Source: Bolinopsis microptera (taxonomy: Eukaryota > Ctenophora > Tentaculata > Lobata > Bolinopsidae). Taken from it: a DNA stretch of 64,000 nucleotides. The position numbers were made by a program, and so were the translations under genes. Under the pieces are notes generated by a model. The model had not been told where the DNA came from and ran no database searches. It worked only from the letters and a program-made list of their open reading frames with translations. Each line of letters starts with the position of its first letter. The first letter of the stretch is position 1. Of this stretch, positions 4,836-48,179 are shown piece after piece. Location of the stretch: contig NC_087072.1 in assembly GCF_026151205.1 (NCBI RefSeq), positions 26,067,799 through 26,131,798 on the forward strand. Reading direction: 5' to 3'.

Positions 4836-5040
4836 TTACAGTCGCCTTGATAATGCTGTAATGCTTGAGCCAGGCCACTTTGCACTCGTTGTTGCGCGAA
4901 AAGAAACAAAAGCGCTGGTACAGTGATTTTCAGTGTTCATGTACTGGTCAGAGAGTCGACGAACTTCTTGCGGTTGTTAAAACACGTAGTGGCAAATCTA
5001 GCAACAACTCTCGTGAGGTGGACTTGACTTTCGTTCGTGA

Positions 5041-8600: not shown

Positions 8601-11600
8601 TAACTCAATTATGACATCCTTATTAATAATGACATTAAACGGTACACTACTAATATTCCCTGTCCCAGGTATTACTGAGACAGAACCACTACAGCAACAA
8701 CACAGGACTGACAAACGGCTCTATCAACAATAACAACTCTAGTAACAATGCAGTCTCCAACGATAACAACTCCAGACAGTCCCAACAGAGGAACACAGCA
8801 ATATTCTCTAATCCCATCAAACAGGCACAACAGGTGGGGTTTACAGTGTTGTGGGATTGTTGGTACTACTACAGTAGTCACATTGCAACTGCTTAGTGCT
8901 TTTCGGCTGCACTGCAGTTATACCGAGATTTAAATTATATTCGCTTGAGCCATTGAGGCTTACCACTGTCAACACTGAACAATACTACTACATAATATTC
9001 ACTATTATAGATATACCACAGGGCAGTTAAGCTGGCGTCATACTTTATTTCAAAAGTTGAGCAATCTTACTATATATAAAGCGAGACGATATATATATAT
9101 ATATATCTGTGCCATTTTACTGACACCACGGCATCGACTTTAACGCAACTTTCTGCAAAAATCGTAAAAGATATACAACTGAAACTTTTTTGGCTGGGTC
9201 AAATGCTTTAATATCCTCCAAATCAGCATGAAAAAATAAAAAATTGGCCGAGGAATAATGATTTTAGAGCCGAAAATTTGGACCCCCAAGTGGTGTCAAA
9301 AACGCCAATTAAATAGGTAATAATTATTTCAGTATCTTGAGTCTTGACACCGTTTAGGGTTATATTTCACGGGTTCCTGCTAGTATATATAATATATCTA
9401 ACTATATATAAAGCGAGACGATATATATGGTTCCGTGCCATTTTACTGACACCACGGCATCAACTTTAACGGGACTTTCCTCAAAAACCGTAGAAGATAT
9501 ACAACTGAAACTTTTTTGACTGGGTCAAATGCTTTAATGGCCTTCAAGTCAGTATAAAAGAATAAAAAATTTACCAAGGAATAAGAATTTTAGTGCCCAA
9601 AATTTGGACCCCCAAGTGGTGTCAAAAACGCGAATTAAATAGGTAATAATTATTTTAGTCTTTTGAGTCTTCCTGCTAGTGTATATAATATACAGAAAAA
9701 TGTTACCTTTCGTATTATATATAAAGGTAACACTTTCCTGTACCTTGCTTTCGTTTTATTTGTATTGCTTACACACTTCACGCTATAATGTATCTCTTGT
9801 TCCACGCACTGTGCACAGTATATATGTATAAATAGTAATATTATGTTTTAATATCCAGCCTGTTCTCCTCAGATGCCCTACAAAAGATCGCCCAGTCCAG
9901 CCCAGCAGCAGTGGCAGAGTAACCGAGGTAACTACTGGTCCGGTCAGCAGAAAATGTCTTACCACTCCCCCTACATGCAGAACAATAATTATAATGTGAG
10001 TATAAACTCCTCCTACATGCAGAACAATAATTATAATGTGAGTATAAACTCCTCCTACATGCAGAACAATAATTATAATGTGAGTATAAACTCCTCCTAC
10101 ATGCAGAACAATAATTATAATGTGAGTATAAACTCCTCCTACATGCAGAACAATAATTATAATGTGAGTATAAACTCCTCCTACATGCAGAACAATAATT
10201 ATAATGTGAGTATAAACTCCTCCTACATGCAGAACAATAATTATAATGTGAGTATAAACTCCTCCTACATGCAGAACAATAATTATAATGTGAGTATAAA
10301 CTCCTCCTACATGCAGAACAATAATTATAATGTGAGTATAAACTCCTCCTACATGCAGAACAATAATTATAATGTGAGTATAAACTCCTCCTACATGCAG
10401 AACAATAATTATAATGTGAGTATAAACTCCTCCTACATGCAGAACAATAATTATAATGTGAGTATAAACTCCTCCTACATGCAGAACAATAATTATAATG
10501 TGAGTATAAACTCCTCCTACATGCAGAACAATAATTATAATGTGAGTATAAACTCCTCCTACATGCAGAACAATAATTATAATGTGAGTATAAACTCCTC
10601 CTACATGCAGAACAATAATTATAATGTGAGTATAAACTCCTCCTACATGCAGAACAATAATTATAATGTGAGTATAAACTCCTCCTACATGCAGAACAAT
10701 AATTATAATGTGAGTATAAACTCCTCCTACATGCAGAACAATAATTATAATGTGAGTATAAACTCCTCCTACATGCAGAACAATAATTATAATGTGAGTA
10801 TAAACTCCTCCTACATGCAGAACAATAATTATAATGTGAGTATAAACTCCTCCTACATGCAGAACAATAATTATAATGTGAGTATAAACTCCTCCTACAT
10901 GCAGAACAATAATTATAATGTGAGTATAAACTCCTCCTACATGCAGAACAATAATTATAATGTGAGTATAAACTCCTCCTACATGCAGAACAATAATTAT
11001 AATGTGAGTATAAACTCCTCCTACATGCAGAACAATAATTATAATGTGAGTATAAACTCCTCCTACATGCAGAACAATAATTATAATGTGAGTATAAACT
11101 CCTCCTACATGCAGAACAATAATTATAATGTGAGTATAAACTCCCCCTACATGCAGAACAATAATTATAATGTGAGTATAAACTCCTCCTACATGCAGAA
11201 CAAGTTGGAAAGTGCAGCACGCTTGCATAGTTAGGAAATCTTTTAACTGCAGAATTTTGTACAAACCTTGTTAACAGATACACCGTATTGTACTTTGTAG
11301 GCTCACTTAGCGTGAAGTTACACAGATGTACACTGTACAGAGATGCATGGTTTTTCTCTTGTTCATAAATTTACCTACAAACAACATCTTGTAAGTGGTG
11401 ATATATTTGTTGATAAAAACTGGATCTGAGCCAACTACTAACAATAACTTACAACTACTACTACTACTACTAACAAACTGTAATTAACCCCCTCGATCTC
11501 TAAATTTTATCTGTCAAAATACGGAAAGTAAATGCCTAATCTTCTTACTATATATAAAGCGAGATGATATATATGGATTATGGATCCGTACCATTTTACT

Positions 11601-14600
11601 GATACCACGGCATCAACTTTAACGCGACTTTAGATATACAACTGAAACTTTTTTGACTGGGCCAAATGCTTTAATAGCCTCCAAATCAGCACGAAAAAAT
11701 AAAAAATAGGCCAAGAAATAGGAGTTTTAGAGCCCAAAATTTGGACCCCCAAGTGGTGTAAAAAACGCGAATTAAATAGGTAATAATTATTTTAGTCTCT
11801 TGAGTCTTGACACCATTTTAGGGTTATACGGGTTCCTGCCAGTTACCTTAATTAGTATGTACCTAATTACCCTTAAGGTCACTCACCAGTGTGTACTTAC
11901 CAGTGTGTACTTACCAGTGTGTACTTACCAGTGTGTACTTACCAGTGTGTACTTACCAGTGTGTACTCACCAGTGTGTACTTACCAGTGTGTACTTAGCA
12001 GTGTGTACTTACCAGTGTGTACTTACCAGTGTGTACTTACCAGTGTGTACTTACCAGTGTGTACTTACCAGTGTGTACTCACCAGTGTGTACTTACCAGT
12101 GTGTACTTACCAGTGTGTACTTACCAGTGTGTACTTACCAGTGTGTACTTACCAGTGTGTACTTACCAGTGTGTACTTACCAGTGTGTACTCACCAGTGT
12201 GTACTTACCAGTGTGTACTTAGCAGTGTGTCCTTACCAGTGTGTACTTACCAGTGTGTACTTACCAGTGTGTACTTACCAGTGTGTACTTACCAGTGTGT
12301 ACTTACCCGTGTGTACTTACCTGTGTGTACTTACCAGTGTGTCCTTACCAGTGTGTCCTTACCAGTGTGTACTTACCAGTGTGTACTTACCAGTGTGTAC
12401 TTACCCGTGTGTACTTACCAGTGTGTACTTACCAGTGTGTACTTACCAGTGTGTACTTACCAGTGTGTACTTACCAGTGTGTACTTACCAGTGTGTACTT
12501 ACCAGTATGTCCTTACCAGTGTGTACTTACCCGTGTGTACTTACCCGTGTGTACTTACCCGTGTGTACTTACCAGTGTGTACTTACCAGTGTGTACTTAC
12601 CAGTGTGTACCTACCAGTGTGTAGTACTTAAGTTAAGTGAATCAATCTTTCAATGTGAGAAAAAAGCGCATAAATTGTATCCTTCTGTTTCAACATTTAA
12701 CCGAAAAATTCTAATATGGCGATGATCCCCCAACCCCTTATAAATAATCAGCCCCCCATCCATGTGATTGTAGTTAGTATTAAATCGCTGATTGACGCAC
12801 TTTCATACTGAGATCTTGTCTTAATTCGATCATAACTCTAACTGTGTCGCATCTTACGTGTAACGTATGAGTACTATACCCTGCTACTAGAGTACTATGA
12901 GATGCTATAATACTCCTAGACATAACGTTAGATCACACCCTCCAAATGTAGCTAATACTATATAATATTACGCATTAAGTCATAGCAATTAGCGACCTAA
13001 GTCATCCACAACATTAGAACATATTTCTAAATGAGAAGCAACAACACACCCTGCACTCTATTGTATAGGCTGGTTTTGGCTGGTTGCCAGAGTGTAATGA
13101 TGTCCCTCTAAACGGTACCCTACTTAGATAAGCAGTTGTTATAGTAGTATATATTGTAGTATACAATATAGTAGTATACATAGCGCAGCTAGCAGAATGT
13201 TCATGTGGCGGCGTGTTAAGGAGCTTCTAAAGGTTTTGAGTGTACTCGTATGTTCTATTGTTTAGCCTAGTGACCATTCTAAAGTAAATATTAAACCAAC
13301 CTGTTCCACAAGGAGTTTTGGATGCAGAATTATAACACACTTATTGCAACTAGTTTAATTAGTTATAACACACTTATTGCAACTAGTTTAATTAATTAAC
13401 TAATGAGTTTAATTAATTACAGAACGGAGGAGGTTACAGGAATGATAACAACCAGTCCGAGCAGCTGAGCCGTACTAACCTTTATATACGCGGACTGCCC
13501 CACCATACCACTGATGATGAGCTGGCTAACATGTGTAAAAGGTTAGTATTCTAATATTTCCTGCTTCTGTTTTCGTTTTCAGAGCTAAAAATAAGTTTGT
13601 AAAACTGTTATGAAATTCTTTCTGACATCTTGATTTCAGGTTTGGAAAGATCACCTCGACAAAGGCCATCACTGACAAGCAGAGCAACAAATGCAAGGGT
13701 GTGTTTTACTTTGACACGTTCAACATTTACTTCTAATATTTGTCAAGCTAAAGTGCGAGAAGATAAGGCCTGTTTAAAACTGCGTGTAGACAAAGAAACG
13801 CGTTAAACCTTCTGAACATTCCCCTTATTACATCTAACACGTGTAATCATTATGTTTCTATCTTATATACTGCTATATATATCTCTTATACTGCCTTATC
13901 TTCATAAAATACCAGTGTTTTTACCAGACACTTCCTCAGGATATGGGTTTGTTGACTTTGAAAGCCCTGAGGCGGCACAGAAAGCTTGCCAACATCTTAC
14001 ATTGCAAGGAACGCAAGCATCGTTTGCTAAGGTTAGTAGCAAGGTATGTCATCTTTATCTTCTTCACTTGGCTGTGCTGAAATTTCGTGCTTTCTCTTGC
14101 ATGTTCCTTTGACATCCTCCACTCGGTGGAGTAACTTGATTACTCTTTTGTGATTGGTATTTCTTTAAAAAGCCCTTTTTTCGCCTAAGTGTCATGATTT
14201 GACTTGGTTTAAGTCATTAAAACGAAAGTGACCGTTGTCAATGTTACCGCTATGTAATTTGAATGAAAACGCAAAAAACCGCCGAAAAATTTCTCAATAA
14301 GATGTGTGCAGACAGTGTCATTGTGAGCATTTTGTGCAGTTTATTTGAGCGCGCGCGAACGCGGGAAAGGCAGTTGTACGACTGTTCTCTCAACTGCTGG
14401 CCGGGACCGCCTGCTTACTGCTTACCAGGGGTACCTATTGCACACACAATCTATTTTATAGATCTAGCGATTGATTCCCAATCGACATTTTTAAAAGTAG
14501 TTTTCCGCAGAATTCCCATATATTTTACTATTAACAAACTTCACTGCGCTATATTGAAGGATGTGACTAACTACCTTATTTCAGATGTCAATCAACGATC

Positions 14601-16274
14601 AGATAAGAAAACAACAGCACGACCCTTCAAAGATAAAGCAACACAACGACAACATAGACGTGACAAACCTGTATATCAGCAATCTACCTCGATCCTTCAC
14701 GGAGGAAGTATGCCTGAAGTTTTCATTTCTTTGTCTGTTGTCACCTAATTTTAATATATTAAGATATATCTCATCTTCTGATGTAGGTCAATATTTTCAT
14801 CCATGTATATTCAATACTTATTTTTCAGCAACTCAACAGTTTGGTGATGCCGTTCGGTGAAATAGTTTCATCTAGGATATTGAAAGACCCAGAGGGGAAC
14901 AGTAAAGGTGTTGGATTTGCCAGGTCACTGAACACCAATTAGTTAGAAAAGAAAGTTTACCAGGAAAACACCATGTACTTCAAAAACTAGTTCCTTTAAT
15001 CTTAGATATAGTTGTAGGAAAAACTTAAAATCTGTGTGCGCTATTAAGTTGCAATTTCAATAATGAGTTATTCTAAAGTTGTTAGCGAGAATTTTATTTT
15101 GAATGATATATGCCTCCTCTGTTAGGATTCACATCTGTTCAAATTGTGCGCGCTTTTCGTTCCCAGTAATACCTATTCAAATAAATCTTATATCCGTCCA
15201 TCATAGTCAGCCAATAGCAACTCTGTGTTCAGGTTGGAAAGTAAAGAATTATGCGAAAAGGCAATCAAAGCCCTGAACGGCAAACCAGTAACCCAAGGAG
15301 GAGAGCCTTTGATAGTCAAATTTGCTGAAGCTCCGAATCCAAACAAGAAACGGCCTCTAGTTTACTTCGCTCCTGCATGGGCAGCAGCTGGAGCGGGAAT
15401 GGAAGATAACGGACAACTTCCAGCAATGAGCTTCGTGCAGCCAATGTATTCAGATGTGTCGTTACAACAGAACGGAGCTTCCGCTATTCCTACACCAGGC
15501 CCTAGACCCCTACTTATACACCCTTGTGAGCTTTGCAATATTCATCTTCACTTGATATAAAAATAATATCAATTCTACCAATCTATTTTATTTGTTAAGT
15601 GCTACCTACCGGCAAATTGAAAATGGTTTAAAAGTTGTCCATAGTTACAAATTTGATCTTTGTGTGCACCACCATAGAGGAAATAAAACAAATGTTAAAT
15701 CTTGAACCTCTTTACTCCTTTTCAGCAATGCAGATGGTACCTCTACCAATTCAGTACAACAACATTCCAAACGGACAGTGGATGTCCCCGCAATTTGTTC
15801 CCCTGACTACATTCCCCCCTCAACTGTCCCCGGTTGATCATCACGCCCTGGCATCTCAGATGGGACAGTTGCACCTCGGCGGAGGCTATATAGGCACTCC
15901 AAACTCCTACACTCCATACAGCACACCTCAGGCTGTAAGCACTAACTCTATTGCCAGTGAGGTTAGGGACCTTTTACTGCGGCCGTTATAATTATACCCT
16001 CTCACTACATGATCAACTATTTTATTGTTTTCATTTTTATCGAACACCATATTGAAATCATCTCGAAGTTAATTAACTTAACAGTATATTTTTACAGAAC
16101 CACACTACTAACGATGCCCATCATCCCAACTACACTATTTATGACACCAGGTGGGTCTCCTCTCATTTTCTCGCTTGCTGACTGTAGCTCATATATAACT
16201 TGCTTATTGAAAATATGATACCATCTCTCCGCATACTTTTTTATTTGACTATCGTTTATTTCAGCCTACAATAG
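5698..16274 (+). CDS. RBMS: RBMS-family single-stranded nucleic acid-binding protein (two RRMs), 12 exons
   Basis: Exons read by splice sites and phase: 5698-5799, 8669-8833, 9873-9995, 13423-13541, 13640-13698, 13940-14031, 14585-14707, 14829-14923, 15233-15525, 15726-15934, 16098-16150, 16265-16274. All junctions keep frame and give 480 residues. Residues 1-140 are Q/N/Y-rich. RRM1 has RNP2 LYIRGL at 150-155 and RNP1 KGYGFVDF at 189-196; RRM2 has LYISNL at 249-254 and KGVGFARL at 287-294. The order and the linking TNLYIRGL / [11 protein letters not shown] blocks match RBMS1-3 (MSSP), which bind AU-rich RNA or ssDNA; the C-terminus is Pro/Gln/Tyr-rich. The start follows an in-frame TAG two codons upstream; an overlapping upstream ATG at 5661 opens another frame. 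Oddities: the donor of exon 3 is repeated 29 times in tandem, and the last acceptor plus stop is duplicated at 16329-16339. Confidence 0.88.
5800..5945. repeat. duplicated donor region and 55-bp tandem pair in RBMS intron 1
   Basis: AGAAGAAAGTGAGTTAAAC at the end of exon 1 recurs about 46 bases later at 5841-5858, copying the donor. It is followed by two diverged copies of a segment starting GTGGTAGTTTTATA (5862 and 5908). Use of the second donor would put a TAA in frame. Confidence 0.7.
5946..7893 (+). mobile_element. 5'-truncated LINE (L2/CR1-like) in RBMS intron 1
   Basis: The open frame runs in from about 5950 without an endonuclease domain. The 3' end is marked by a short ATT-type tail (about 7876-7893), as in L2/CR1-group elements. 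The insertion is in the same orientation as the host gene. Confidence 0.75.
5995..7683 (+). CDS. LINE reverse transcriptase, open frame, N-terminus missing
   Basis: About 562 codons without a stop. Reverse transcriptase blocks are intact: the IPLIKDD...NYRPVSN finger region (104-124), AFDTVDH (194-200), [10 protein letters not shown] (247-256) and the catalytic YADD (280-283). The C-terminal tail with [14 protein letters not shown] and [10 protein letters not shown] is typical of the L2/CR1 group. The first in-frame codon of the listed span is GTG, not ATG; the frame continues upstream, and the APE endonuclease half has been lost by 5' truncation. The lack of any stop or frameshift suggests a fairly recent insertion. 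Its catalytic parts are complete but it cannot be an autonomous element without the endonuclease. Confidence 0.88.
   Translation: MLASDFNNFFSEKVEKIRDNIPASPIPDCSDTNATPLFEFEPTCISELEDIIKESGINCSPNDVLPQDLVKDNITSLLHVWVDLVNQSLSSGSMDGVKLADVIPLIKDDSQDPNILKNYRPVSNLTFLGKLIERVVLRRLNEHLSRNNLNCQEQFAYKKHHSTETLLIKIVNDVLIAADEKTATVVMLLDLSAAFDTVDHTLLLRILKQEIGIRGTALSWFTSFLKGRCQRTRLGKSVSETITIRFGVPQGSVLGPVLFNIYIRSLYRCVKESGFSIIGYADDHQIMKSFKPSDQVKTLTNQLRNCFLTIKNWMSQYYLQLNDSKTQLIVFGPSKVLSEIELHGVDIAPNTLVMFVPTVKNLGLVMDNQLVFDKQIVSLKKKCFHTLRNIRKIRFLLSPKQIKIIVNSLVVSCLDYCNGLYFGIGEKLLHQLQLLQNAAAKAVTGKYKHDHLDDDLIKLHWLDVKKRIVFKILLLSHKSLLGLAPIYLQDMFKYAHHGHSLKLIVPSCNSKFGERSFSVVAPKIYNRLPVTITSAQSLECFKAFLKTYLFKMSPDELEKLYR
7894..8668. 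other. remaining RBMS intron 1
   Basis: AT-rich, with no gene or repeat that I recognise. Confidence 0.4.
9069..9398. repeat. dispersed ~300-bp repeat, copy 1
   Basis: Begins ACTATATATAAAGCGAGACG. The core starts near GTGCCATTTTACTGACACC and ends at CTAGT followed by AT-rich sequence. In tandem with copy 2 within RBMS intron 2. No reading frame. The TC...CTAG core ends recall Helitrons, but I see no convincing 3' hairpin. Confidence 0.75.
9401..9692. repeat. dispersed ~300-bp repeat, copy 2
   Basis: Same family as copy 1 with the same AT-rich head and CTAGT end. The part before the end (TTAGGGTTATATTTCACGG) is deleted. Confidence 0.75.
9967..11206 (+). repeat. 42-bp minisatellite spanning the RBMS exon 3 donor, 29 donor copies
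   Basis: The unit reads, in codons, [14 protein letters not shown]; it is 42 bp and nearly invariant. Exon 3 ends AAT|GTGAGT at 9995/9996, and that donor recurs every 42 bp up to 11172. Each unit also has a TCCTCCTACATGCAG stretch resembling an acceptor. The frame stays open through the array (9873-11234), then meets TAG. The long open frames on the opposite strand are by-products of the repeat. Confidence 0.95.
11547..11843. repeat. dispersed ~300-bp repeat, copy 3
   Basis: In RBMS intron 3, between two minisatellites. Same head and body as copies 1 and 2; the terminal CTAG has become CCAG. Confidence 0.7.
11882..12626. repeat. 14-bp minisatellite, about 53 units
   Basis: Unit CCAGTGTGTACTTA with scattered substitutions. 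Because 14 is not a multiple of 3 and the unit lacks stops, all plus frames read open; none is a gene. On the minus strand each unit reads CTG|GTAAGTA, a near-consensus splice donor. Confidence 0.92.
12627..13422. other. remaining RBMS intron 3
   Basis: No gene seen. Near 13340-13420 a short segment (ACACTTATTGCAACTAGTTTAATT) is tandemly repeated just before the exon 4 acceptor. Confidence 0.4.
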
Positions 16275-16345
16275 AACAATATGATGCCATCTCTCCACAT
16301 ACTTTTTATTTGACTATCGTTTATTTCAGCCTACAATAGAACAAA
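16210..16345 (+). repeat. tandem duplication of the last RBMS acceptor and stop
   Basis: Two copies of about 65 bp, each ending TTTATTTCAG followed by CCTACAATAG. The first acceptor is at 16264, the second at 16329. Both give the same three final codons and stop. Confidence 0.8.
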
Positions 16346-18330
16346 AGCGCAGTAGAAGGCTGAAAAAGGCACTAAAGAAATGCATGCACCTGCACAACAG
16401 GGAGTCGTCGCGAATTATTTGCAGAAACTTTAATTCATCAACCGAACTCTTGAAATTCTCGAACGATCTGTAAAATTTGTCAATGATTTCGACGAAAAAT
16501 ACCAAAAAAAATGTGATAATGGTTTGAAAAGAACCGACGAAGCTTTTGATTTTCTCGATGTATTCGAATCGTTCCAAAACATCAAAATTTGGAAGTGATA
16601 TGCCAAACAGTTTGTTTTGTCAAAAATCTGGCGACGAAACAAACGAGTAGCGGCCCCAGTGGTAGGCTCTGAGAGGGACTGTCTTCAGAAGATCAGATTG
16701 TATCTGATAGGTTGTGTACTGTGAATCTTTCTATTGTGACTAAAGGATGCGCAAACCCATTTACACCATTTAGTTCCCCGTAAGTTGTTTTCCGATTTAA
16801 TTTTTGCAATGATATTTGTCAATTTCTAGGTCTTTTTAAGATGTTTTAATAATGTTTGGGTGTATTTAAATATTGGGTTTCGACTTGGGCATATAAATCT
16901 CCTTTTCTATTCTTGATTAGTCAGCATAGCTCATATATCTTCTGTCACAAGACATTTTGTTGCTTAATTTTTGTACTGGAACTAAAGATTTGAAAAAACT
17001 GCCTGATCAGATGATACGGTTGATTGCCGACACACCATTTAACGTGTAAAAATGGTTATTTGCCGACACACCATTTAACAAATGGTTATTTGAAAATGAT
17101 TTGTGAAAATCTTTTTCTTGTTTTTAAAATATTGGTGCTCATGTTAGGTTTATTTTTTCACAGAATTTTGAGTCCGGAGCACATAGGTACCCCTGAATTT
17201 AAAAATCACTGTGGGATTCCAAACTTTGGACATGTTGATGTAGTCCTACGTATCATGAAGCTCCTTTTGTACTGTACAGTTGGGCTTAAAATCTAGCGTA
17301 TTATTTGGGATCGTTGAGAGATTCAGGGGTGCCTTTATTTTGATTGAGAATGAAAATTGATTCAAACATTCGAAGAATTCAGTTCCTTCTAAACGGCTAA
17401 CAGGAACAGGTTTTGTTGTTTTTATTTTGTATTTCTGCGAGCGAAATGTTTTTACGTGTCCAGTAGCCATTTTTATTTGATTGTTTTCTTTAATAGAAAT
17501 TTATTTGAAAAAATTCCTGTCCTCGAAGGGAAATTTTCTTACGGCTCCCAAAACCTTCCCAGTATGAGGTGTCTCCCTTCTTCCCTGAAGCTCATTTTTA
17601 ATTTAATTTTTTAAGTGAGTATACTTTTAGCAGGTGACTGATGTTTTTATAAGTCAAGTTTTTATGCTAGTGCTAGACAGAACTCCAGGACTGCAGATTG
17701 TGTTGTGTGGCATTATATCGAGAGCTTGAGTCGCACTGATTTTGTCTAGATGATCATATCTAGATATGATCCTTATCCGACTCGAATGATTTTAATCACA
17801 TTCCAACTTGCTGCTCTGCCATTTAACTATTACATCTTGTTTATTCAGTTGAGTCACAGAGAATGGCAGTGCTTTAAGTTTAAATGTTATTTAGTTTTGG
17901 AACACCCTGTAATTTGTATGTAAGGTGTGCCAGTGTGTTATATCACCAGATGGAGAGGTGTCTCTAGCAGCAGCTGTGTAATTTGGATCCAGAAACTTTG
18001 TTTACAATAAATTGGTAGGATTTACCTTATCTTCAGATTATGAGATGGTTTTTTGAATTTTTAGATGTGCAGAAATGCAGTGGTTAGGTGTATTATTTGG
18101 AATAATTTGACGAAAAGTGCCGGCAAATATGAAATATGTCACGAAATTGAGTATTCCCTGACTTGATAGCTCTGTACATAAATTTAAAATTGAATTCTTT
18201 GAAATCAGTGTTTCTATTTGTATTCGTGTGGTGTAGTGCAGCCGGTGTAGTGGTCTGGTGAGCCACATTCCAGATCTTCATCAGCCGATACGATTTCGTG
18301 CAGGCTGGATCTTAAAATGTTCAAGACTAT
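16346..18330. other. RBMS 3' flank, no gene seen
   Basis: AT-rich; likely contains the RBMS 3' UTR, with several AATAAA-like sites (for example ACAATAAATTGG near 18003). A 30-bp direct repeat (GCCGACACACCATTTAAC) sits at about 17026-17090. Confidence 0.4.
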
Positions 18331-18332
18331 AA

Positions 18333-18900
18333 TTGTTCGACGGCGCAGTTTTAATCTCCACAGAAAGCACAGTGCACACCCCAAATATTCACTTGGAATA
18401 CTCTAGAAAGAGAATATGTATAATAAAACTAAATACAGCAAACACGAGAAATACATCAAGTGGCAGAGTTGAGAGTATTCACTACTTTTTTCGAACATCT
18501 TTATTTCTTTTTCTGAGAAGTTTAATTTCGACGTTTAGTTGTCTGTATAAGCAAGAAGGACGTTTCAACGATTCCCGTTCAGACGAGCAGGGGAACCACT
18601 CCTATCTGTCCAGTTCCGCTAATTTCTTCTTGATGTTTCGAACAGTTGTCTCGCCGATTCCAAAGTGTAGGGCAACTGAAGAGGAGGATTTGCTGCTCTT
18701 CGACATTTGGATCTCTTCTGTCCGATGGTTAGAACTTACAGATGTCGATAGCTATACTACATACTAGTGATAATACAGATTTCGATACGATTTGCAATGT
18801 ACTGCAAAGAAAGCAAGAATTTGAGTCAATTTCTATTACATATATTACTTACTAATATATAATATACTATTAATGAATAAGTTACTGAGTAAGACTATCA
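18333..18900 (-). mobile_element. relic of a pogo/Tigger-type transposon
   Basis: On the minus strand 18720-18600 reads a helix-turn-helix resembling CENP-B/Tigger transposases: VALHFGIGETTVRNIKKKL, soon followed by stops. Flanking sequence (about 18740-18900) also occurs in inverted orientation near 62260-62575, where it adjoins a Tigger-like terminus. That supports the assignment. Confidence 0.6.
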
Positions 18901-18910
18901 GGAATACCCT

Positions 18911-19310
18911 TGTAGGTTTACAACCTACCAGGACGCGCGCCGAGTTGGACTCGTCGACGGTCCAATATATGGAACAGATATTTTACGAGTATCACCCGTT
19001 AAGTGATCAGTGATTGAAACAGTTTTTTAGAGTGATTTAGCTTAACGGGTGATACTCTTAAAATATTTGTTCCAATTATCCAGGACCATCTTGTATCACG
19101 TGGTGACCCCCACTGTTGCTTCACTATAGTAGAGTTTCGACGATACAAGGGGAGCCGCGCACTCGTGCGCGGCGGGTCATACAACGTATGACATGACAAG
19201 GACCATCGACAAGACCAACTCGGCGCGCGTCCTGGTACCATCGACAAGTCCAACTCGGCGCGCGTCCTGGTAGGTTGTAAACCTACAACCGAAATACCGC
19301 TTTTAAAGCA
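18911..19310. mobile_element. palindromic family B element with a nested family A MITE
   Basis: The plus arm starts TTGTAGGTTTACAACCTACC (18912) and reads to about 19003. The reverse arm runs from 19042 to about 19309 and ends in AAACCTACAA, with a 38-bp spacer between them. The reverse arm is interrupted at 19091-19199 by a family A MITE and has a duplicated 46-bp piece (ACCATCGACAAG...GTCCTGGT). Each arm contains small hairpins such as GTAGGTT-TAC-AACCTAC and CGAGT-TGG-ACTCG. Confidence 0.7.
19091..19199. mobile_element. family A hairpin MITE, copy 1
   Basis: Begins TTGTATCACG and ends with CAA. Perfect 8-bp duplication GGACCATC on both sides (19083-19090 and 19200-19207). Contains hairpins with stems GCCGCGCAC and GTCATAC. 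The 8-bp duplication is what hAT-type transposases leave. Confidence 0.8.
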
Positions 19311-19558
19311 CCACCCTTAGCCTGATATCAGCTGAGCACAAACGCATAAATTGTTTCAGGATTTTCACAACAGATCAGCTTGTACATACTATTACCATTG
19401 AATATTGCTTATTAGTATGTAAAAGTTTTGATACATAATATATAATATAATACATGTTAAAAAGTTTAGTGTCTAGTATTTGTATTTGTGTCTAGTATTT
19501 GTATCTGTTATTATTAAGTTCGATTGAAATATCTTGTCATACATCATACGTTGCATAT

Positions 19559-19658
19559 TTGTAGGTTTACAACCTACCAGGACGCGCGCCGAGTTGGACT
19601 CGTCGACGGTCCTGTTCCAATATATGGAACAAATGTTTTACGAGTATCACCCGTTAAG
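19559..19658. mobile_element. family B single arm
   Basis: Begins TTGTAGGTTTAC and ends CCCGTTAAG. The 8-mer TTGCATAT lies directly on both sides (19551-19558, 19659-19666), consistent with an 8-bp target duplication. It also contains a TGTTCCA...TGGAACA hairpin. Confidence 0.7.
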
Positions 19659-19666
19659 TTGCATAT

Positions 19667-19770
19667 GCAATATGACCCGCCGCGCACGAGTGCATTACTG
19701 GGCCGCGCTCAGCCTGTCATTCCGTTGTAGCGCGATGCACTACTGGGTCGCGCCGCGCATCAAATAATTC
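19667..19770. repeat. short GC-rich palindromic repeat
   Basis: Contains GCTCAGCCTGTCATTCCG, which recurs in reverse complement at about 36697-36725 inside a LINE, plus a partial reversed family A end (ATGACCCGCCGCGCAC). Confidence 0.55.
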
Positions 19771-20147
19771 TTCTCGCAACGCTAAATTATAATGACATCA
19801 ATGTGTTTAAAGAAATCGTGGGCATCACTCAGTAAACTGCGCGTCTTTAGCGCGTGTCTTGTTGTTATGCATCAATCCTTCGGTAGATCGGCGAGATGCA
19901 CCACTGTGCCTCACCGAGCTGCGAAGGATTGACATCGTGAATCAAGTCATTCCGCCGAATCTCTATTCAATTATCATGTTTATGAACATGATAGCCTGAG
20001 GTCTTTATGTAAACGAGTGCATCGCAGTAATATATACTTACTTTTAAACTTCATGACTTGAGATCTTTTGCAGCATATAATCAAAATTAATTTGTGCACT
20101 TATGTCTTATACATACATCAACATACATACATCAACATACAAATGAC

Positions 20148-20250
20148 TTGTATCACGTGGTGACCCCCACGGTCGCTTCACTATAGCGTCTTCGACGCTA
20201 CAGGGGGAGCCGCGCACTTCGTGCGCGGCGGGTCATACAACGTATGACAA
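20148..20250. mobile_element. family A hairpin MITE, copy 2
   Basis: 103 bp, TTGTATCACG...GTATGACAA, with perfect 8-bp duplications CAAATGAC at 20140-20147 and 20251-20258. Four hairpins follow one another, each with a three-base loop. Confidence 0.85.
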
Positions 20251-20258
20251 CAAATGAC

Positions 20259-21258
20259 AACGTACTTGGAACAGTGAAATATTTTTGAAAGAGAATAACA
20301 AACTCAAAAACGCATAGTTCTTTGTAAAAAGTCAAATTACCTTCAAGTCAATTTAGTGCAGAATCAAGCGAAATGTTCAATGTTGAACTATTTTATAAAT
20401 ATCAAATTTGATGTGCTGTCTATTATATTGAGATATAGTTTTTTTTCATTGTTAATAGATTGACCCGGCCCGAAGCTATTTGGAAGCTTCGTGCCTATTT
20501 TTCGAGAAGAAAGCAGCGCGCGCTATATTTCGAAGAAATTTTGACGAGTATTATATATTATCCGTCACGATATAGTGCGCGCCATAATCAATAATATAAT
20601 ATGAAATACTATAAAACCTTGTGTTGTATGGTAAGATCGAGCGCTCAGTTTCAGTACATATAAAGTTCTCTGACACAAATATAAGAAATAAGCAGTTCTG
20701 CCGCAATGTTATCGTCATCCTTGACATGTTATCATTGTTTTACCCTAACCCAACCCATAACTTGAAGATCTTGTGTTTTACGTGTTTTCGCTAATCAATC
20801 AAAACACGTTTCGGCAGAGCTGCTGTGGGGCTGTCAGTATTTCCTCGAAGTAATTTTCTTGGAGCACTGTTTGCCGCAGATCATAACCGATGTCTCCTGT
20901 TCTTTGCAAGTGTTTCTTGTTATCACTTGTAATGGGTCGACATCGAACACCTTACGAAGTTATTCTTTCATTTTTTGATGCATGGCATTCGATATAATTG
21001 GGTATATCTTAGGATGCAGCTTAGATGTGTTCTTCATATTTCTGCTGCGAAATAAATGTACTACATAAAGTTTGTGTTGTAATAATTTATCATTTGGTAG
21101 TCTAGATGCACGGAAACGATCAGGGAACAGGCTTCAGAATTTTGGTTATATTGTAAAATGATGTGCATAATTTATCTTAGAAATCAACAAGTGAGATTGA
21201 AAATAATAAAAATGTTAGGCTCTCACTGAACATGATCTAACAGGGATGGTAGTGAGTA
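20259..21258. other. intergenic, upstream of CLPX
   Basis: AT-rich. A GC-rich patch at 20461-20585 (GCGCGCGCTATATTTCG) resembles one at about 50455-50520. No promoter element is clear enough to name. Confidence 0.35.
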
Positions 21259-24200
21259 ATGTTGAGTCAAGTATCCATACAATCAGTAAGAGTGTTAAGA
21301 TGTCTGGGCACGTTTAAAGTGCAATGTTGTAAGCAACATTACTCCTGCCTGCAACCTCCTCACCTTTCTACTACTACTCCTAAACACCTTTCTCGCCAGG
21401 TTAGTGTAAATCACTTATTATCTATTGTCGGCTATAAGTCTAAATGCCGGGACAAGAAATTAAATGGACATATTCATAGCATTACATAGTTTTACTGTCT
21501 AAAAGCTAGAGGGTGGCACATTAAATAACTCTACATATTTTGTGATGATATTAACCTCCTGCACCCTCAGTTGTCCAGTACTTCTGATCCAGATGACCCT
21601 ATCTCCCGCTGCCCCAAGTGCGGAGGCCCACTAAACAATCTGAAGGGAGTTTCCACCACCCCACGATTTGTGAAATGTCAGCAATGTGAATATTTCTACG
21701 TTTGTGACATTTTCAACAATGACATGAGAGTCGAATCAAGGTCAGATATCCTTGAAATTACTGATTCATACCAGTTGTACCAGTAATAAATTATATTAAT
21801 TAAATATACTAATAAAAATGGAAGTGCATCATTTGCTTTCTCTGCAATGAAGAAGAAGTATTATAACTTGATACATTTCAGCCACCTTGACCCAGCGTAC
21901 GACACCAAAGAAGACAGACTTCCTACCCCTAAAGAGATATTCTCGTATCTGAACGAGTATGTTATAGGACAGAGCCACCCGAAGAAAGTGCTATCAGTTG
22001 GTATCTACAATCATTACAAGAGGATACAGATAAACTTATCTGAGAAGAAATCATCTAGAGTGTCGGGTATCTCCAAGATGGATAAAACTAACGTCCTGCT
22101 TCTCGGTCCTACAGGTTTTAAAGAATACTTGTGTTGAAACAGGAAACATTATAAATAATCTTTATTTCATTTCAAAACAGAGAGAATCCCGTTATATTAT
22201 ATACGCAATTACCGTTAATTACCGGTGATAACTCACAGTTAACATTGCGACAGGGACGGGTAAGACCTTGTTAGCTCAGTCACTGGCCCATTGTCTAAAA
22301 GTTCCTATGACTATTTGTGACTGCACTTCTCTAACTCAAGCTGGGTATGTGGGGGAGGATGTGGAGTCTATTATCGCTAAACTTCTTATTGCTGCCGACT
22401 TTAATGTGGACAAGTGTCAGCGGGGCATCGTCTTTCTCGATGAGGTAAAATAAACACTTGCTTTGGGGGTCGTCAGCTATTTATATCATCTGTATGTTTA
22501 AACATTACTTTTATTATGTTTAATTCTTATACTATCTGTAATGTTAATAATTTCTGCAATGTTTATATTATCTGTAATGTTCATATATTTTCTGCAATGT
22601 TTATATTATCTGTTATGTTCATATATTTTTTGTAATGTTTATATTATCTGCAATGTTTATATTATCTGTAATGTTCATATGTTTCTGTGATGTTTATATT
22701 ATCTGTAATGTTTATATTATCTGTAATTTTCATATATTTTCTGTAATGTTTATATTATCTGTAATGTTTATATTATCTGTAATGTTTATATTATCTGCAA
22801 TGTTTATATTATCTGTTATGTTCATATATTATCTGTTATGTTCATATATTTTCTGCAATGTTAATATTATCTGTTATGTTCATATATTATCTGTTATGTT
22901 CATATATTTTCTGTAATGTTTATATTATCTGCAATGTTTATATTATCTGTAATGTTCATATGTTTTCTGTAATTTTTATATATTTTCTGTAATGTTTATA
23001 TTATCTCCAATGACCCCCCCTCTCTGAACAAGCTCTTTATTATTGTATTATATCAGGTTGATAAGATCTCGATGCGGTCTAAAGATGTACATGTGCGGGA
23101 CGTATCAGGTGAGGGAGTACAGCAGGCTCTCCTCAAACTTCTAGAAGGAACTTTAGTTACTATTCCTGAACGACTTATTCCCTCTCGAAAACTCAGATCG
23201 GAGCCCATTCAGATTGATACGACCAATATTCTTTTCATTGCTTCCGGAGCTTTTGCGGGGATCGAGAAGATTGTCAGGTATGTTTGGGAAATTGTCCGGT
23301 ATGCTTGGGAAGATTTTCCGGTATGTTCGGGAAGATTGTCCGGTATGTTTGGGAAAATTGTCCGGTATGTTTGGGAAGATTGTCCGGTATGTTTGGGAAG
23401 ATTGTCCTGTATGTTTGGGAAGATTGTCCGGTATGTTTGGGGAGATTGTCCGGTATGTTTGGGAAGATTGTCCGGTATGTTTGGGGAGATTGTCCGGTAT
23501 GTTTGGGAAGATTGTCCGGTATGTTTGGGAAGATTGTCCGGTATGTTTGGGGAGATTGTCCGGTATGTTTGGGAAGATTGTCCGGTATGTTTGGGGAGAT
23601 TGTCCGGTATGTTTGCGAAGATTGTCCGGTATGTTTGGGGAGATTGTCCGGTATGTTTGGGAAGATTTTCCGGTATGTTTGGGGAGATTGTCCGGTATGT
23701 TTGGGAAGATTGTCCGGTATGTTTGGGGAGATTGTCCGGTATGTTTGGGGAGATTGTCAGGTATGTCATGTTTGGGAAGATTGTCCTGTATGTTTAGGAA
23801 GATTGTCCGGTATGTTTGAAATAATCTCATTAGACCGTATGTCTCAATCCAAGCCGAGGGATTAAACGTTCTCACTTCAGAGGGCTAAGCCACCTAAATA
23901 TATCTAAAAATGACTCATGAGCGGATAAATAAAAAGATATTATGAGCATGAATACTGGTTTTTGTAAAAAATATCTCTCTTTTGCAGAAACAGAAAAGTT
24001 AAGAAAACGGTCGGGTTTGGTAGCCCTATTTCTAAAGATGCAGCTATTCTTGATCAGACCAAAAACAAAGAAAACTTCGAGCAACAACTTAAAATTAACG
24101 ATGACTTTTTAAAGGTGACACCATAGTTCTGACCATTCAAATTATAAGATTAAATTACACTTTTTGTATGGTGAGCTCAATAAAATAATAATGATATTAA

Positions 24201-27200
24201 TATTAATCATTGAAGTGAATTTTATATTATGTACCATTAAAAAGCCCTTCCTGTTGACTATAATGGAATTGGTGTACAGGAGATTGACGCAGAAGATCTG
24301 GTGAACTACGGGATTATACCTGAGTTTGTGGGCAGAATGCCCCTCTGTGTATCTCTCATGTCATTAGGTAATCTAACTATTTGAATCAAATGATGGAGTA
24401 CAGTTCGCTGTTTATTTAGGGCCCCTCCCTAGTTGAGGACCCCTCCTCCCTTGTTGAGTGCCCCCCTCTCTTGTTGAGGGGCCCTCCACCCTAGTTGAGG
24501 GGCCCTCCCCCCGGCCCCTAGTCGAGGCCCCCTTCCCCCTAGTTGTGCCCAGAAGCAAAGGTTTCTAGTTGAGGGCCCCTCCTCCCTTCACTGGTTGTAC
24601 CCCCTCCCCCCTAGCCGAGAGCTCCTCCTCCCTTGTTGAGGGCCCCCTTCCCCCTAGTTAAGGGCCCTCTCCCCCGAGTTTAAAGTGTAATTCCCTCAGA
24701 TCGCGAGGCTCTGGTAACGATCCTAACCCAGCCCAAGAACTCAATAATATCTCAATACAAGTACATGTTCACTTTGGATGACAGCGCACTCGTTTTCACT
24801 GATGATGCTCTGGACGCCATTGCTGAACTGGCCATCAAGAAACGAACTGGTAAATCTTTAAAATAGTTTTCTTTTTATTTGATTTGTCAATATCATGTTT
24901 GTTTTTTTGGAAGTTATCTGTGAAGGAAACGCGAGTTAAATAAAATCTAAAGTTACATTATAATATGTGAATTAAAAGTAAGCTCCTATCAGCAGAATTA
25001 CACGACAATCTGCAGAATAACGCTCTGTAAACTGCAGTATCCAGCGTTAGCCCAGTCTGCAGAGTCCAATAACGCTCTGTAAACTGCAGTATCCAGCGTT
25101 AGCCCAGTCTGCAGAGTCCAATAACGCTCTGTAAACTGCAGTATCCAGCGTTAGCCCAGTCTGCAGAGTCCAATAACGCTCTGTAAACTGCAGTATCCAG
25201 CGTTAGCCCAGTCTGCAGAGTCCAATAACGCTCTGTAAACTGCAGTATCCAGCGTTAGCCCAGTCTGCAGAGTCCAATAACGCTCTGTAAACTGCAGTAT
25301 CCAGCGTTAGCCCAGTCTGCAGAGTCCAATAACGCTCTGTAAACTGCAGTATCCAGCGTTAGCCCAGTCTGCAGAGTCCAATAACGCTCTGTAAACTGCA
25401 GTATCCAGCGTTATCCCAGTCTGCAGAGTCCAATAACGCTCTGTAAACTGCACAGTATCCAGCGTTAGCCCAGTCTGTATTGGTCCTCATCTGAACAAGA
25501 CCTACAATTCTCTTCCATATATTTGTTGTTGTGATTGTTACAGTGGCCTTGTCTGGTCCAGTAGGAACAGTTAGTGTTGAGGTCTTGACATGGAGTAGGG
25601 GACTCAGTTGTTGGTTCCTCATCTTTATCACAGTCCATCTTCATCTCCTGAGTAAACTCAGCGGCTCTACATACCTTACAGCGGCTCTAGATACCTTACA
25701 GTGGCTCTAGATACCTTACAGTGGCTCTAGATACCTTACAGCGGCTCTACATACCTTACAGTGGCTCTAGATACCTTACAGCGGCTCTAGATACCTTACA
25801 GCGGCTCTACATACCTTACAGTGGCTCTAGATACCTTACAGTGGCTCTAGATACCTTACAGCGGCTCTAGATACCTTACAGCGGCTCTACATACCTTACA
25901 GTGGCTCTAGATACCTTACAGTGGCTCTAGATACCTTACAGCGGCTCTAGATACCTTACAGCGGCTCTACATACCTTACAGTGGCTCTAGATACCTTACA
26001 GTGGCTCTAGATACCTTACAGTGGCTCTAGATACCTTACAGCGGCTCTAGATACCTTACAGTGGCTCTAGATACCTTACAGTGGCTCTAGATACCTTACA
26101 GTGGCTCTAGATACCTTACAGTGGCTCTAGATACCTTACAGCGGCTCTAGATACCTTACAGCGGCTCTAGATACCTTACAGTGGTCGAGGATGATGTTTT
26201 GACATGGGAAGACTTCTTTGATAAGAGCAAATACTTGAGGAGCTTATCCCTAGTGTTAATGTGGTTGTGAATACTATTTGGAGGGTTTGATCTGTACCCC
26301 TTCTGCAAAGTACAGCAGTTGACATTGCATAAGTACAGTGTGCCCTGTCTCCTCCTCACAGTGTGCCCTGTCTCCTCCTCACAGTGTGCCCTGTCTCCTC
26401 CTCACATTGTGCCCTGTCTCCTCCTCACAGTGTGCCCTGTCTCCTCCTCACAGTGTGCCCTGTCTCCTCCTCACAGTGTGCCCTGTCTCCTCCTCACAGT
26501 GTGCCCTGTCTCCTCCTCACAGTGTGCCCTGTCTCCTCCTCACAGTGTGCCTTGTCTCCTCCTCACAGTGTGCCCTGTCTCCTCCTCACAGTGTGCCCTG
26601 TCTCCTCCTCACAGTGTGCCCTGTCTCCTCCTCACAGTGTGCCCTGTCTCCTCCTCACAGTGTGCCCTGTCTCCTCCTCACAGTGTGCCCTGTCTCCTCC
26701 TCACAGTGTGCCCTGTCTCCTCCTCACAGTGTGCCCTGTCTCCTCCTCACAGTGTGCCCTGTCTCCTCCTCACAGTGTGCCCTGTCTCCTCCTCACAGTG
26801 TGCCCTGTCTCCTCCTCACAGTGTGCCCTGTCTCCTCCTCACAGTGTGCCCTGTCTCCTCCTCACAGTGTGCCCTGTCTCCTCCTCACAGTGTGCCCTGT
26901 CTCCTCCTCACAGTGTGCCCTGTCTCCTCCTCACATTGTGCCCTGTCTCCTCCTCACAGTGTGCCCTGTCTCCTCCTCGTACCAGTATCTGAGGCACCCT
27001 GATATCGCGTACTTGGCTCCCAGCAGGTGAACACCGTGCGCAAACTCGTGGAGGAAGATATTCTCTGTCGCGTACTGGTCCTGCGCGTAGCACAGGATAT
27101 TCTCCTCGGCACCGAGATAGGCCACGCTTCTGTAGCTCCTGTAGTACTATCTCTGCCTGTTATAGAAGTAACCCAATTTGACGAGAAATACTAAAATACA

Positions 27201-28911: not shown

Positions 28912-29036
28912 TGAGGGATTATGAGATGTTTTAGAGTCCATTGAGGCGGAACGAAATTCAGAAATTGATAAAAACCTGATCTTGTTTGACAAATATTTGA
29001 AAATTGAAGATATAGATTCTCAACAGTGACCTTATT

Positions 29037-29302
29037 ATGTCCAGCCCCCCCCCCTCACCAGCCCAGTCACCATGGTTACAGCCCCCCCTCACCAGCCCAG
29101 TTACCATGGTTACAGCCCCCCCCCCCCCCTCACCAGCCCAGTTACCATGGTTACAGCCCCCCCTCACCAGCCCAGTCACCATGGTTACAGCCCCCCCTCA
29201 CCAGCCCACTTACCATGGTTACAGCCCCCTCACCAGCCCAGTTACCATGGTTACAGCCCCCCCCCCCCCCCTTCACCAGCCCAGTTACCATGGTTACAGC
29301 GA
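29037..29302. repeat. ~33-bp C-rich minisatellite downstream of CLPX, about 8 units
   Basis: CAGCCCAGTTACCATGGTTA followed by C-runs of 5 to 13 and TCACC. It lies about 130 bp past the CLPX stop and is probably in the 3' UTR. The variable C-runs could be sequencing error or true slippage. Confidence 0.88.
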
Positions 29303-29900
29303 CCATTGACCCAGTCATCTTATTCCTTGTAATGTATTGTATTAAATCGCATCTCAAGTGGTGCCAACTTATTTTTTTGAAATAACCAAAGAGTCTTTAA
29401 ATCACAAAAGCATGAGAATGAGAACAAATTGGATTATTAAGTTATTACATCCTAGTGATTGTTATACTTGATTAGTTTTTATCATTGAACTAATGCAAAA
29501 CTTTCCGAAATATTGTTTTGTTTATGATTTTATACGGGTAGTCAAAATGTTTTGGGGTTGAATTGAAGTATGAAGACACACTTCACATGTTATTGTATAC
29601 AGTGAAACCGATTTTAAAATGTGAAATAAAGCGTGTTTGTACTATATTAATAGAATGCCAGACAGGAGCACGCCTTCAGCCTGATCTGGGAAGTAACACA
29701 ACCGACCCCTCGTTTGTGTACATTCACGTTAGCTATTGCTCGTTTATTGTTAGTTGTCATGTGGGGACGACCCTAGGGGCGCAACTGCAAACGCGCCGTA
29801 TTGCGCGCGCGCAGGTTGTATAGCTGCAAGTCGATCAAATCAAGTGCAATATCTCTTCCTTGTATAATTGACATTATCATCCATTAAAGGATAGACACGC
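29303..29900. other. intergenic, no gene seen
   Basis: No recognisable gene or repeat. The reading frames are short and without family resemblance. Confidence 0.35.
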
Positions 29901-42741: not shown

Positions 42742-42799
42742 TTGAAAATGGGGGAAAAACAAAAAAAAAAAAACTTTGAAAAAAAATTTTTTTTTTGGG

Positions 42800-42832
<33 letters not shown>

Positions 42833-45012: not shown

Positions 45013-46699
45013 TCACACTTCTCGTAAGTCTATGAGCTGCATGGTGGCAGCTTGGTTCTTCCTGTGTCCAAAGTAAAAAGGATCACAGTTAAGAGGACAT
45101 AGCCACGTTACTTTAGCTCCTGTTTTAGTTAGGAATGTTACTGGGTGAACTCGACACAGTCCTGTGGTGATGAATTGTGTTAATATATACAGTGTATGAA
45201 CTAAGAACCGAAGAAAGAACTATAACCAAAGAACAGATTGATATTTCAAACAAATATTGATCAATTTAGAGCCCACAAAAATGTGGCCTATCCAGCATGT
45301 ATCAACAACACCAGTTTCAGACTAAAGTACCTGATGTTTGAAGTATCTGCCGTTAAAGAGTAAGCCGCGTTGGCCAACATTAAACGCCTCCACTGTGTGA
45401 ACAGATCGACGAGTTTGGTTGGTGGCTGGAGATGGCGGTGGTCGTCGTATCAGCCGTTTCCTTAGAATACCGCTGTTTCCTGACTGGCTTCGTTGACCTT
45501 GGATTACTGTCGTCTTCCAGGTAGTAGAGTATCGTGGTCAACTATTTGAGGTGTTTGATTTTAAGTGGCTGTACATAATACTAGATAAACCAAATTTACT
45601 TTTTTTGAATAATAAATTGTGCCGAATAATTAAGTAAAGAGTTTCGTCATTATTCTATCACCTACTACCCAAGAGAAACACGAAAACACAAAATTTAACG
45701 ATTACACAAAAACATCACATTTTCTGAACTGTCTTCTCCTCCCTCATTCTCGTGACCCTGCCATCCTGGAAGAAAAGCCACGGAAACGAAGAACCTGCCG
45801 GTCGATGTACCACCAGGAGGGGGCTGGCTGTCCCGGCTTTTCCGTTGGGGACTATCTTAGGACTTGGGAGGATCTTCTGTCCCGGAAGAGCTTTACCTGG
45901 AGATGTATTCAGTTTAGAGGAGTGATTCCACAAACGGGACTAAGATGTAATTTACCTACATACTATACAGGGTCCATCACTTCAAAACATGTACGAAAGA
46001 AACGAAGCCAAGAAGTCTCCGGAAGGACCATTCTCTTAGGGAGACCGTGTCTGTTGAATCTGTGACAATAATATAACAACCAATGAGAGCTCAATGTTAC
46101 AGCCTGTGATTAGCTGTTTAAGATGGCTCAGCTATCAGGGCCTGCATTTCGAGTAACTATGCATACAACATTAACGTTTTGACAACTCCCCATTGGCCGT
46201 CAGGCTTCAACTGTGAAATTGCGATGCAATGACCATGACAAGCCGTGAGACAAGCAAAGAAAAGTGTCAAGCAGAAGCAAGTGGTCAGAAGACAGAACTA
46301 TATAAAAACTAACGTATTAACGTGGTGCACATGCACAAGGCAAGATATATAAATTAGTCAGCCACTGCGCAGAGAAAGTTGGGCAACACAGCAGTCTCCG
46401 CTATTATTCCAATCAGGAAAATCACTCTAAATTCAGGCACTTTAAACATCATCATATTTACCCCTACAAATTAGCGGGGCCCAGTGGCGTGAGCCTGTAG
46501 ATCCGCTTACATGGGATGCGATAACGCTGAATTTGTCTGAGATAGAGGGAGTTCTGCTGCGCCTGGCTAAGTTGCGGCTGGTGTCCACGGCTAAGACCGG
46601 TGCCAGTATGGGCTCCTCTCGGTGAGCTGAGGGGTCCAGGTTGATAGTTACAGCGTACTGGCCCCAGGGACGAAAGTCAGCAGGCAAAAGCTGCATATC
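45013..46699 (-). CDS. multi-exon gene of unknown function
   Basis: The last exon is the best supported: 45161-45013, after a CATCACCACAG acceptor, encodes 49 codons ending LIDLREV-stop, with GAKVTWLCPLNCDPFYFGH. Upstream coding-like pieces are about 45520-45330 (VEAFNVGQRGLLFNGRYFKH, donor GTACTT), about 45933-45720 (Pro/Ser/Lys-rich linker) and 46699-46532 (PADFRPWGQYAVTINLDPS, donor GTAAGC). The phase between the last two exons does not match by one base, which a consensus error would explain. Composition and splice signals support a real gene, but I do not recognise the protein and the exon set is incomplete. Confidence 0.45.
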
Positions 46700-48179
46700 T
46701 GTTCAGTATCGGATAGCACGCGTGTGACATAGTCACGATTCAGCCCCTATCAAAATAGTGCAACAGTCGGTTACTTTTGCATAATAATAACAAGATGAAG
46801 TAGTATGAATTTTGTGCAGTGTTTTGAGTAAATATAACCAGATGCACAAATATCTGCTCCAATAACGATTATAACCATGGATTAACGAATAAACATGATA
46901 CATGTTGCTCACCGCCAAAACCGTGCCTTTACTCCCCGCCAACTACGGGACTTTCTCGTTTCGCATAACGAATGCAATGAAGGCTTCTAGGAAGTTATCC
47001 CACATCCAAGCAGAAAAGAAATTATGGTTTAAGAAAGAACGATAGAGCACACTTTTGATGGATCTATGATTTTTGAATGATTTAAAAACTCTTTCAAATT
47101 CCCAGTAATCATGTACTTAACGTTTGGAGTTGGTGGATACGTCCCGGGAAGAAACGGGAGCGCCATCCTTAGATAGAAATAGTCCCAGTAAAAAACTTAG
47201 ATTGCACAGAGGCTATATGAACAAAAGATACAAGTGATTTTTGAGTGAATTGTGCGACATGTTGAAATGTTACAACCGTAGACATGGTATGTAGCTGTAA
47301 TTACTTGTGAATGCTAATGATTGACAATTGAGACCGATTTGGGTGTATATATGTGATATGAAATTAGAAAATTGATATAAATAATTGAACATATACTACC
47401 TGATTTTGAGAAATGCAATTATGTTTAAATATCTATTGTATCGTTTATATTTTAATAGTTAGGGTGAAATACAATCTGTTTTATTTCCCAATAATGAACT
47501 ATATGGAATCACGTAAAGTCGATAATAAACTTCCTCAGCATCTCAAGAAGCATTTCAGCACAGTAAACCGCCCAGCATCGTTTCATCGGGTGCATGTAAA
47601 GGGTCAAGTTCTTGAGATTGATCTAGAAGTTATAGTTCAAAGTGTACTGTTATATGTTAGGCCACGTGATCGGCCATGGCAGTATAATACAAGCATGGGC
47701 CGCGACCACTGCCGTCATGCAGCAACTCTTTAGTTTTGATGTGAGCTGTAGGACCATCTATGAGGTAAAGCAGGATCCGAATTCGTTTACATAAATCTTG
47801 GTTTGTCTTTCACTACAGTATGCACACATTTCTGATATTGCTTCGATAATAGCGAGTTTAACTTCAGTACAGCACGTCTGGATTTCGGATTTTTAGCAGA
47901 CAAGTCGGGATATGATAAATTTCCGGATGTAGCCGGATGTTCGTTTCCTCGTTTCTCCCGTTACTGAGATATGCCACCAAGGCTCGGATAGCAGTATTAG
48001 TTTGCTCAGGTTGAAAGGGGGTGCCGGAGCAGTTGAAACAGCAACAGAGATATGGTATTTGAGAGGATTACTGAGAAATCCCACACACGGGAATCGGGTT
48101 TCCGGACTGCGACGTGGTAAAGCTTTGTTGATTAAAACCAATAAAACAACAGAATAATCGCTGGCACTTTCGACTCATG
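46700..48179. other. no convincing gene
   Basis: An open plus stretch at 47494-47733 (HLKKHFSTVNRP, VKGQVLEIDLEVIVQSVLL) has coding-like content but no recognised family and no clear splice context. Confidence 0.3.

Follow-up and report, generated by a model that had tools for sequence, protein, structure and literature searches.

Do the minisatellites of a ctenophore genome begin by preference at the 5' ends of introns? The question is raised by a window of 64,000 nucleotides from Bolinopsis microptera (contig NC_087072.1, here C1, positions 26067799-26131798). The assembly comprises 264.65 Mb, of which 13 contigs hold 258.07 Mb (97.5%). The first-pass annotation of this window described four tandem arrays, called A to D here, in which every unit was thought to carry the end of an exon together with its 5' splice site (donor). 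All four arrays are present near the positions given there (Table 1), and their unit sequences are unrelated, as the annotation had it. Array B and, likely, array A are anchored at exon ends, while C and D lie in sequence that relatives read straight through, and the proposed acceptor is itself coding. The joint reading that we favor, with a probability of roughly 0.55, is that A and B are ordinary minisatellites sheltered by the first donor, and that introns gain or keep arrays more easily at the 5' edge.

Arrays across exon-intron junctions

Array A lies in a gene with an RRM domain (RRM_1, 4.9e-34 by Pfam over the joined downstream exons). The exon before it ends ..NNNYN| in phase 0, likely at position 9995 to judge from the reading frame, and the next exon starts at 13423 (NGGGYRND.., ahead of the RRM). 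Its unit amounts to 14 stop-free codons, and an open reading frame (ORF) at 9873-11234 stays open across the whole array. Array B lies in a gene that we take to be ClpX and compare with human ClpX. The reading ..IEKIV(R).. crosses the donor GATTGTCAG|GTATGT, the intron starts at 23278 and the next exon at 23988, and GTATGT is present in most units. Intron gain by tandem duplication was not found at array B: its acceptor is separate, 170 bases beyond the array, and no copy of the exon lies there.

A third clear spanning array was found in a survey of exon ends chosen blind to repeats. It adjoins a myosin-like P-loop exon on contig C2 (locus L156) with the junction CAG|GTAGGA, and its 40-bp unit, present in at least five copies, consists of 31 exon bases plus GTAGGAGAG. 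In A, B and L156 the array overlaps the exon end and the donor lies inside the units (GTGAGT, GTATGT and GTAGGA), and the exon-donor anatomy of A and B is real, beyond chance. At locus L072 the junction GGGGATTAG|GTGAGTGTAAT is present twice with a poly-G run in between, and at L145 a 20-bp unit holds GTTAGT and one exon base. In each of A, B, L156 and L072 the duplicated stretch reaches 9-11 bases into the intron, a bare observation on four cases. A single mobile repeat spreading to A, B and L156 was considered and rejected: their units differ, and they have neither a unit nor a flank in common, which agrees with the annotation's view that no one repeat had spread.

We suggest that such an array would begin as a short tandem duplication, one of its breaks lying in the exon and the second some 10 bases into the intron, just past the donor consensus, and that copying of units would then multiply it. 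With the 5'-most donor intact the message would be correct, and every further copy would be intron. We infer that this first donor is the one used. In B and L156 it would have to dominate, or the other messages would have to be discarded, because units of 22 and 40 bp shift the frame.

The open frame of array A, whose donor copies are all in the same phase, also suits a different role, in which later donors are used, the protein grows by n x 14 residues according to the donor chosen, and the array is a generator of protein length. The minisatellite of human IFI6 (6-16, G1P3) reportedly provides multiple splice donor sites, a finding credited to Turri, Cuin and Porter in 1995. The portion of PMC4526556 that deals with this gene reports downstream repeat units in use as splice donors. 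IFI6 resembles the arrays described here in having a minisatellite at an exon end with donor sites within the units. It differs in that its downstream donors are reported as used, and in that here the pattern recurs in three unrelated arrays of three genes, with frame-breaking unit lengths in B and L156. A role in protein length would not be general, since the units of B and L156 are not multiples of three and break the frame, and the copy number of array A itself differs in a sister segment of the window. Such a role is highly improbable.

Start positions of arrays at intron edges

The survey took exon ends from Pfam kinase and myosin matches. Of the 90 donor stretches, 30 came from kinase and 60 from myosin matches, and 66 were kept (19 kinase, 47 myosin); rows were dropped, L066, L137 and L158 included, where the exon end was unclear, where the stretch started too near the exon end, or where it was a near-identical second copy. 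From 30 acceptor stretches, 21 were used, all in kinase genes. Arrays were called by Tandem Repeats Finder (TRF) score at thresholds of at least 50, 40 and 30. The background consisted of 1500 windows in 17 loci (L011-L027), evenly spaced and hand-picked, not random; window edges inflate the count of starts in its near zone. The zone from -22 to +15 around the exon end was picked after the data were seen. A codon-score exon finder run on the spaced loci was too weak by itself; it pointed to L021, where an array lies 13 bases past a donor (by eye), and to L022, which is the same gene as L056.

At a score of at least 50, the 66 donors have ten arrays, starting at -22, -1, +1, +6, +7, +8, +12, +15, +15 and +43. 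Nine of the ten thus fall within -22 to +15, and none starts past +43 out to +105. At the lower thresholds 10 of 13 starts (at least 40) and 12 of 20 (at least 30) fall in the same zone. The background at a score of at least 50 has 99 starts in the matching near zone and 92 in +21 to +105, the latter being one per 1385 bases. Seven starts lie in 0 to +15, where 0.76 would be expected (P 1.5e-5), or 1.62 at the inflated rate (P 1.5e-3). Intronic starts also depart from a uniform spread over 0 to 105 (Kolmogorov-Smirnov P 7e-5, rising to as much as 0.01 if much shorter introns are allowed). At a score of at least 40, the near-zone comparison gives P 0.041 and the near-versus-far comparison P 0.013. 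None of the 21 acceptors has an array at a score of at least 40; two weak ones appear at 30 or more, ending about 100 bases upstream. The RRM and ClpX genes supply 16 further donors, some of them taken without a homology check; here A starts at -32 and B at -12, and interior arrays start at +54 and +82. The signal is the position at which arrays start, not the number of arrays, and a bias of starts to the 5' edge of introns is suggested, not proven.

Several results weigh against this bias. The 66 donors represent only a few gene families, and they are not independent of one another. Measured against its own inflated background, the interval from -22 to +20 holds nine starts with 4.4 expected (P 0.034), and near versus far gives P 0.017 at a score of at least 50; at 30 or more the two comparisons give 0.068 (near zone) and 0.062. 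Donors differ from acceptors with P 0.053, or 0.098 within kinase genes only. By a 16-mer test, no single position has repeats in more than 5 of the 66 donors, a share smaller than the 13% seen for background positions, and introns beside these conserved exons are therefore array-poor overall. Spanning arrays number three called in 82 donors with about 1.6 expected (at one array per 1560 bases, with exons assumed free), which is no clear excess over random placement.

Because of this lack of a clear excess, tolerance can explain the spanning arrays. Taken as the whole account, tolerance would mean that arrays arise anywhere with no preferred start, that they are purged from exons as well as from the branch-point/acceptor region, and that the first donor saves those that span it; the pile-up in the survey would be small-sample noise combined with short introns. 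The near-random rate of spanning arrays fits this account, as do an array content of 14.7% in 170 kb of spaced loci and the P values themselves, which for the pile-up reach 0.01 with very short introns and for the other tests lie at 0.02-0.06. Yet it predicts that +21 to +105 should behave like +5 to +15, and one start was seen against seven (score of at least 50); nor does it predict that all four junction duplications end at a similar distance into the intron. We regard tolerance alone as possible, with odds distinctly short of even.

The first-pass annotation had offered both ideas: that exon-donor junctions are preferred starting points for duplication, or that duplications there are tolerated because any donor in the array works. 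The first survives as a suggested bias toward the intron's 5' edge, borne by the seven starts in 0 to +15, and not as an excess of spanning arrays. The second holds as far as tolerance goes, but that any donor would serve is doubtful for B and L156, where the frame would shift.

The reading that we favor adds to tolerance that, in an array-rich genome, an intron would gain or keep arrays more easily at its 5' edge than deeper inside or near its acceptor. Acceptors and branch points cannot shelter arrays as donors do. To produce the pile-up just inside the intron, which we infer to be real and general, either mutation would have to be biased or the sequence between donor and array slowly trimmed. 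It is rather unlikely, in our judgement, that founding duplications have a mutational hot spot at the 5' edge of introns in this genome, with one break about 1-15 bases into the intron. If it were, a second break on the exon side would yield a donor array and any other an array on the intron side; splicing would set the lower limit of the zone, and its upper limit would suggest a process linked to transcription or to the boundary between exon and intron.

Arrays in a decayed gene and donor-like words

Arrays C and D lie within the coding sequence of a peptidase-like gene with an ShK domain. A search with one exon piece of this gene led to six places, including L033, with an unbroken frame of 420 amino acids, and L032. 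Both flanks of array C correspond to adjacent residues in L033 (tblastn 3.6e-6 and 4.3e-6), and L032 likewise reads through. At the site of array D both relatives again read through (..YYRREEENDRWTNTYSMSTYLELFSEGAQ.., ..WYNDRKSGGTIWANTYAMSNAQEYFAEGVQ..), although the tblastn match on the 3' side is weak (E 4.7), and L032 carries ..NTYAMSNAQEYFAEGVQSWFNVNAFSD.. there in a single frame. The sister copy of the gene (L029) has two units of array D followed directly by coding YFAEGVQNFFNVNAYADPPN, and the stretch proposed as an acceptor encodes YFAEGVQ. The gene is probably dead, to judge from frame breaks in the window copy and a stop and a deletion in the sister copy, and arrays would therefore be free to grow in it. 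Arrays C and D, together with an array of 52-bp units in the gene's 3' part, are probably the same kind of growth inside coding sequence that was already dead. The 52-bp array has an ShK match immediately upstream (Pfam 5e-6) and perhaps lies within a second ShK-like part (WANAGYC), for which matches are weak (E 0.46 and up).

C and D could still be donor arrays at true exon ends, perhaps of new introns, given that their units hold GTAAGG and GTGAGG and that arrays in a live coding exon would need splicing out. We find this scarcely credible in view of the intron-free relatives, the sister copy with two D units, the coding acceptor and the probable death of the gene. An intron-gain reading of C and D was rejected, as the relatives show no intron at either site.

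A second partial copy of the peptidase-like gene lies at window 37334-38040 and 27139-27598. In its 3' part is a short element whose ends are inverted (CGTTACACTATAGTACTAT..) and which, by eye, resembles a small DNA transposon. Directly after this partial copy comes a 19-bp array of about 245 copies (window 38097-42747).

Donor-like words also occur in arrays away from exons. No exon was seen adjoining the donor-like word of the 14-bp array inside the first intron of the RRM gene, or that of the 34-bp array beyond the ClpX stop. The idea that any array with a donor word marks an exon end was tested on ten places, among the matches listed as far as C2:21.87 Mb, that have AGGTAAGT three times consecutively; the 5' side was read and the contexts were judged by eye, and none of the ten shows an exon that ends at this word, so the idea was rejected. 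The array at L038 runs antisense within an intron, and that at L039 adjoins an acceptor on the opposite strand. L044 and L045 have one 34-bp unit in common. L041 and L042 are paralogues 56 kb apart whose intron opens directly with a 19-bp array on the minus strand (GTACTTACC..) that holds no exon bases; L042 has two to three copies of its unit, L041 many more. At L036 (C1:37 kb) and L037 (C1:762 kb) a common 32-bp unit with AGGTAAGT and a similar flank indicate an array on a dispersed element. Genome-wide, AGGTAAGT arrays give 958 matches (398 + 560) versus 0 for the reversed word; these matches are units of far fewer arrays, and their total was not used for any conclusion. A donor-like word in an array is no proof of an exon end.

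Table 1. Features of the window, with positions counted from its first base
Feature	Position	Strand	Description
RRM gene exon	9873..9995	+	ORF from 9873; 3' end likely TATAAT|GTGAGT; first intron base 9996
Array A	9964..11203	+	42-bp unit = 32 exon bases + GTGAGTATAA; 29.5 copies
14-bp array	11881..12623	-	Donor-like CTG|GTAAGT; 53 copies
ClpX exon	23057..23277	+	3' end GAAGATTGTCAG|GTATGT; AAA_2 1.2e-29, ClpB_D2-small 6.5e-8 (Pfam, joined exons)
Array B	23266..23818	+	22-bp unit = 12 exon bases + GTATGTTTGG; 25 copies
52-bp array	25016..25477	-	8.8 copies
Array C	25659..26184	-	20-bp unit; 26.3 copies; not an exon end
Array D	26335..26978	-	23-bp unit; 28 copies; not an exon end
34-bp array	29048..29263	-	Donor-like CTG|GTGAGG
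Metazoan signal recognition particle RNA	46474..46776		90.6 bits

Sister segment and known systems

Window positions 1120-18878 have an inverted sister at about C1:25.86-25.88 Mb (L009/L010), some 200 kb away on the same contig, with 94-98% identity in the main blocks and 85-92% in others. Window 25016-29874 is also matched by a sister stretch (L035), and the sister copy of the decayed peptidase-like gene lies at about 25.845 Mb. Both sister stretches probably belong to one duplicated segment, which is either a true inverted duplication or a misplaced haplotype. The unit counts in window and sister are 29.5 and 22.4 for array A, 53 and 13 for the 14-bp array, 28 and 2 for array D, 25 and 2.4 for a 29-bp array, and 8.8 and at least 69 for the 52-bp array, while the 34-bp array is alike in both (6.2 and 6.0). 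In the sister, array C is made up of 20-bp units and of a 15-bp derivative, the latter in about 51 copies. The differences in copy number between the segments reveal gains and losses of units. Array A and other arrays compared with the sister vary in copy number among copies of the locus, as variable number tandem repeats (VNTRs) do; array B lies outside the comparison. An assembly artefact may touch exact copy numbers or the status of the sister as a misplaced second haplotype, but the junction anatomy of the arrays would not come from one.

The contig measures 26.206 Mb, which places the right edge of the window about 75 kb before its end. Window 42800-44130 is A-rich with long A runs and odd composition, and is perhaps poor sequence. 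Poly-G runs stand at 55303-55355 (53 bases) and 58953-59007 (55 bases).

In the ctenophore Hormiphora, 13% of the genome is marked by TRF, and genes nested within introns occur commonly (PMC8527503). The array density found here (14.7%) and the presence of a gene inside a ClpX intron are thus ordinary for ctenophores. PMC4974935 describes intron gain by tandem duplication over an AG/GT exon motif. As there, a tandem duplication crosses a splice motif here; unlike those new introns, the intron here existed already and has its own acceptor, and the donor side alone is multiplied. Minisatellites and VNTRs in introns are known, for example in C. elegans (PMC4039745). They are like the present arrays in position and variable copy number; the excerpted text of that report does not describe units made of an exon tail and a donor. 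A donor-bearing minisatellite (human IFI6) and tandem duplication over splice motifs in intron gain are thus known already, while a limited search of the open literature found no report of arrays concentrated at donors.

If tolerance alone is at work, these arrays still illustrate cleanly that a first-donor rule can shelter the growth of repeats, and they are also a warning that a donor-like unit does not prove an exon end. If the bias of starts is true, the boundary between exon and intron would itself influence the sites at which DNA duplicates, and arrays of this kind would readily supply alternative donors and lengthen introns.

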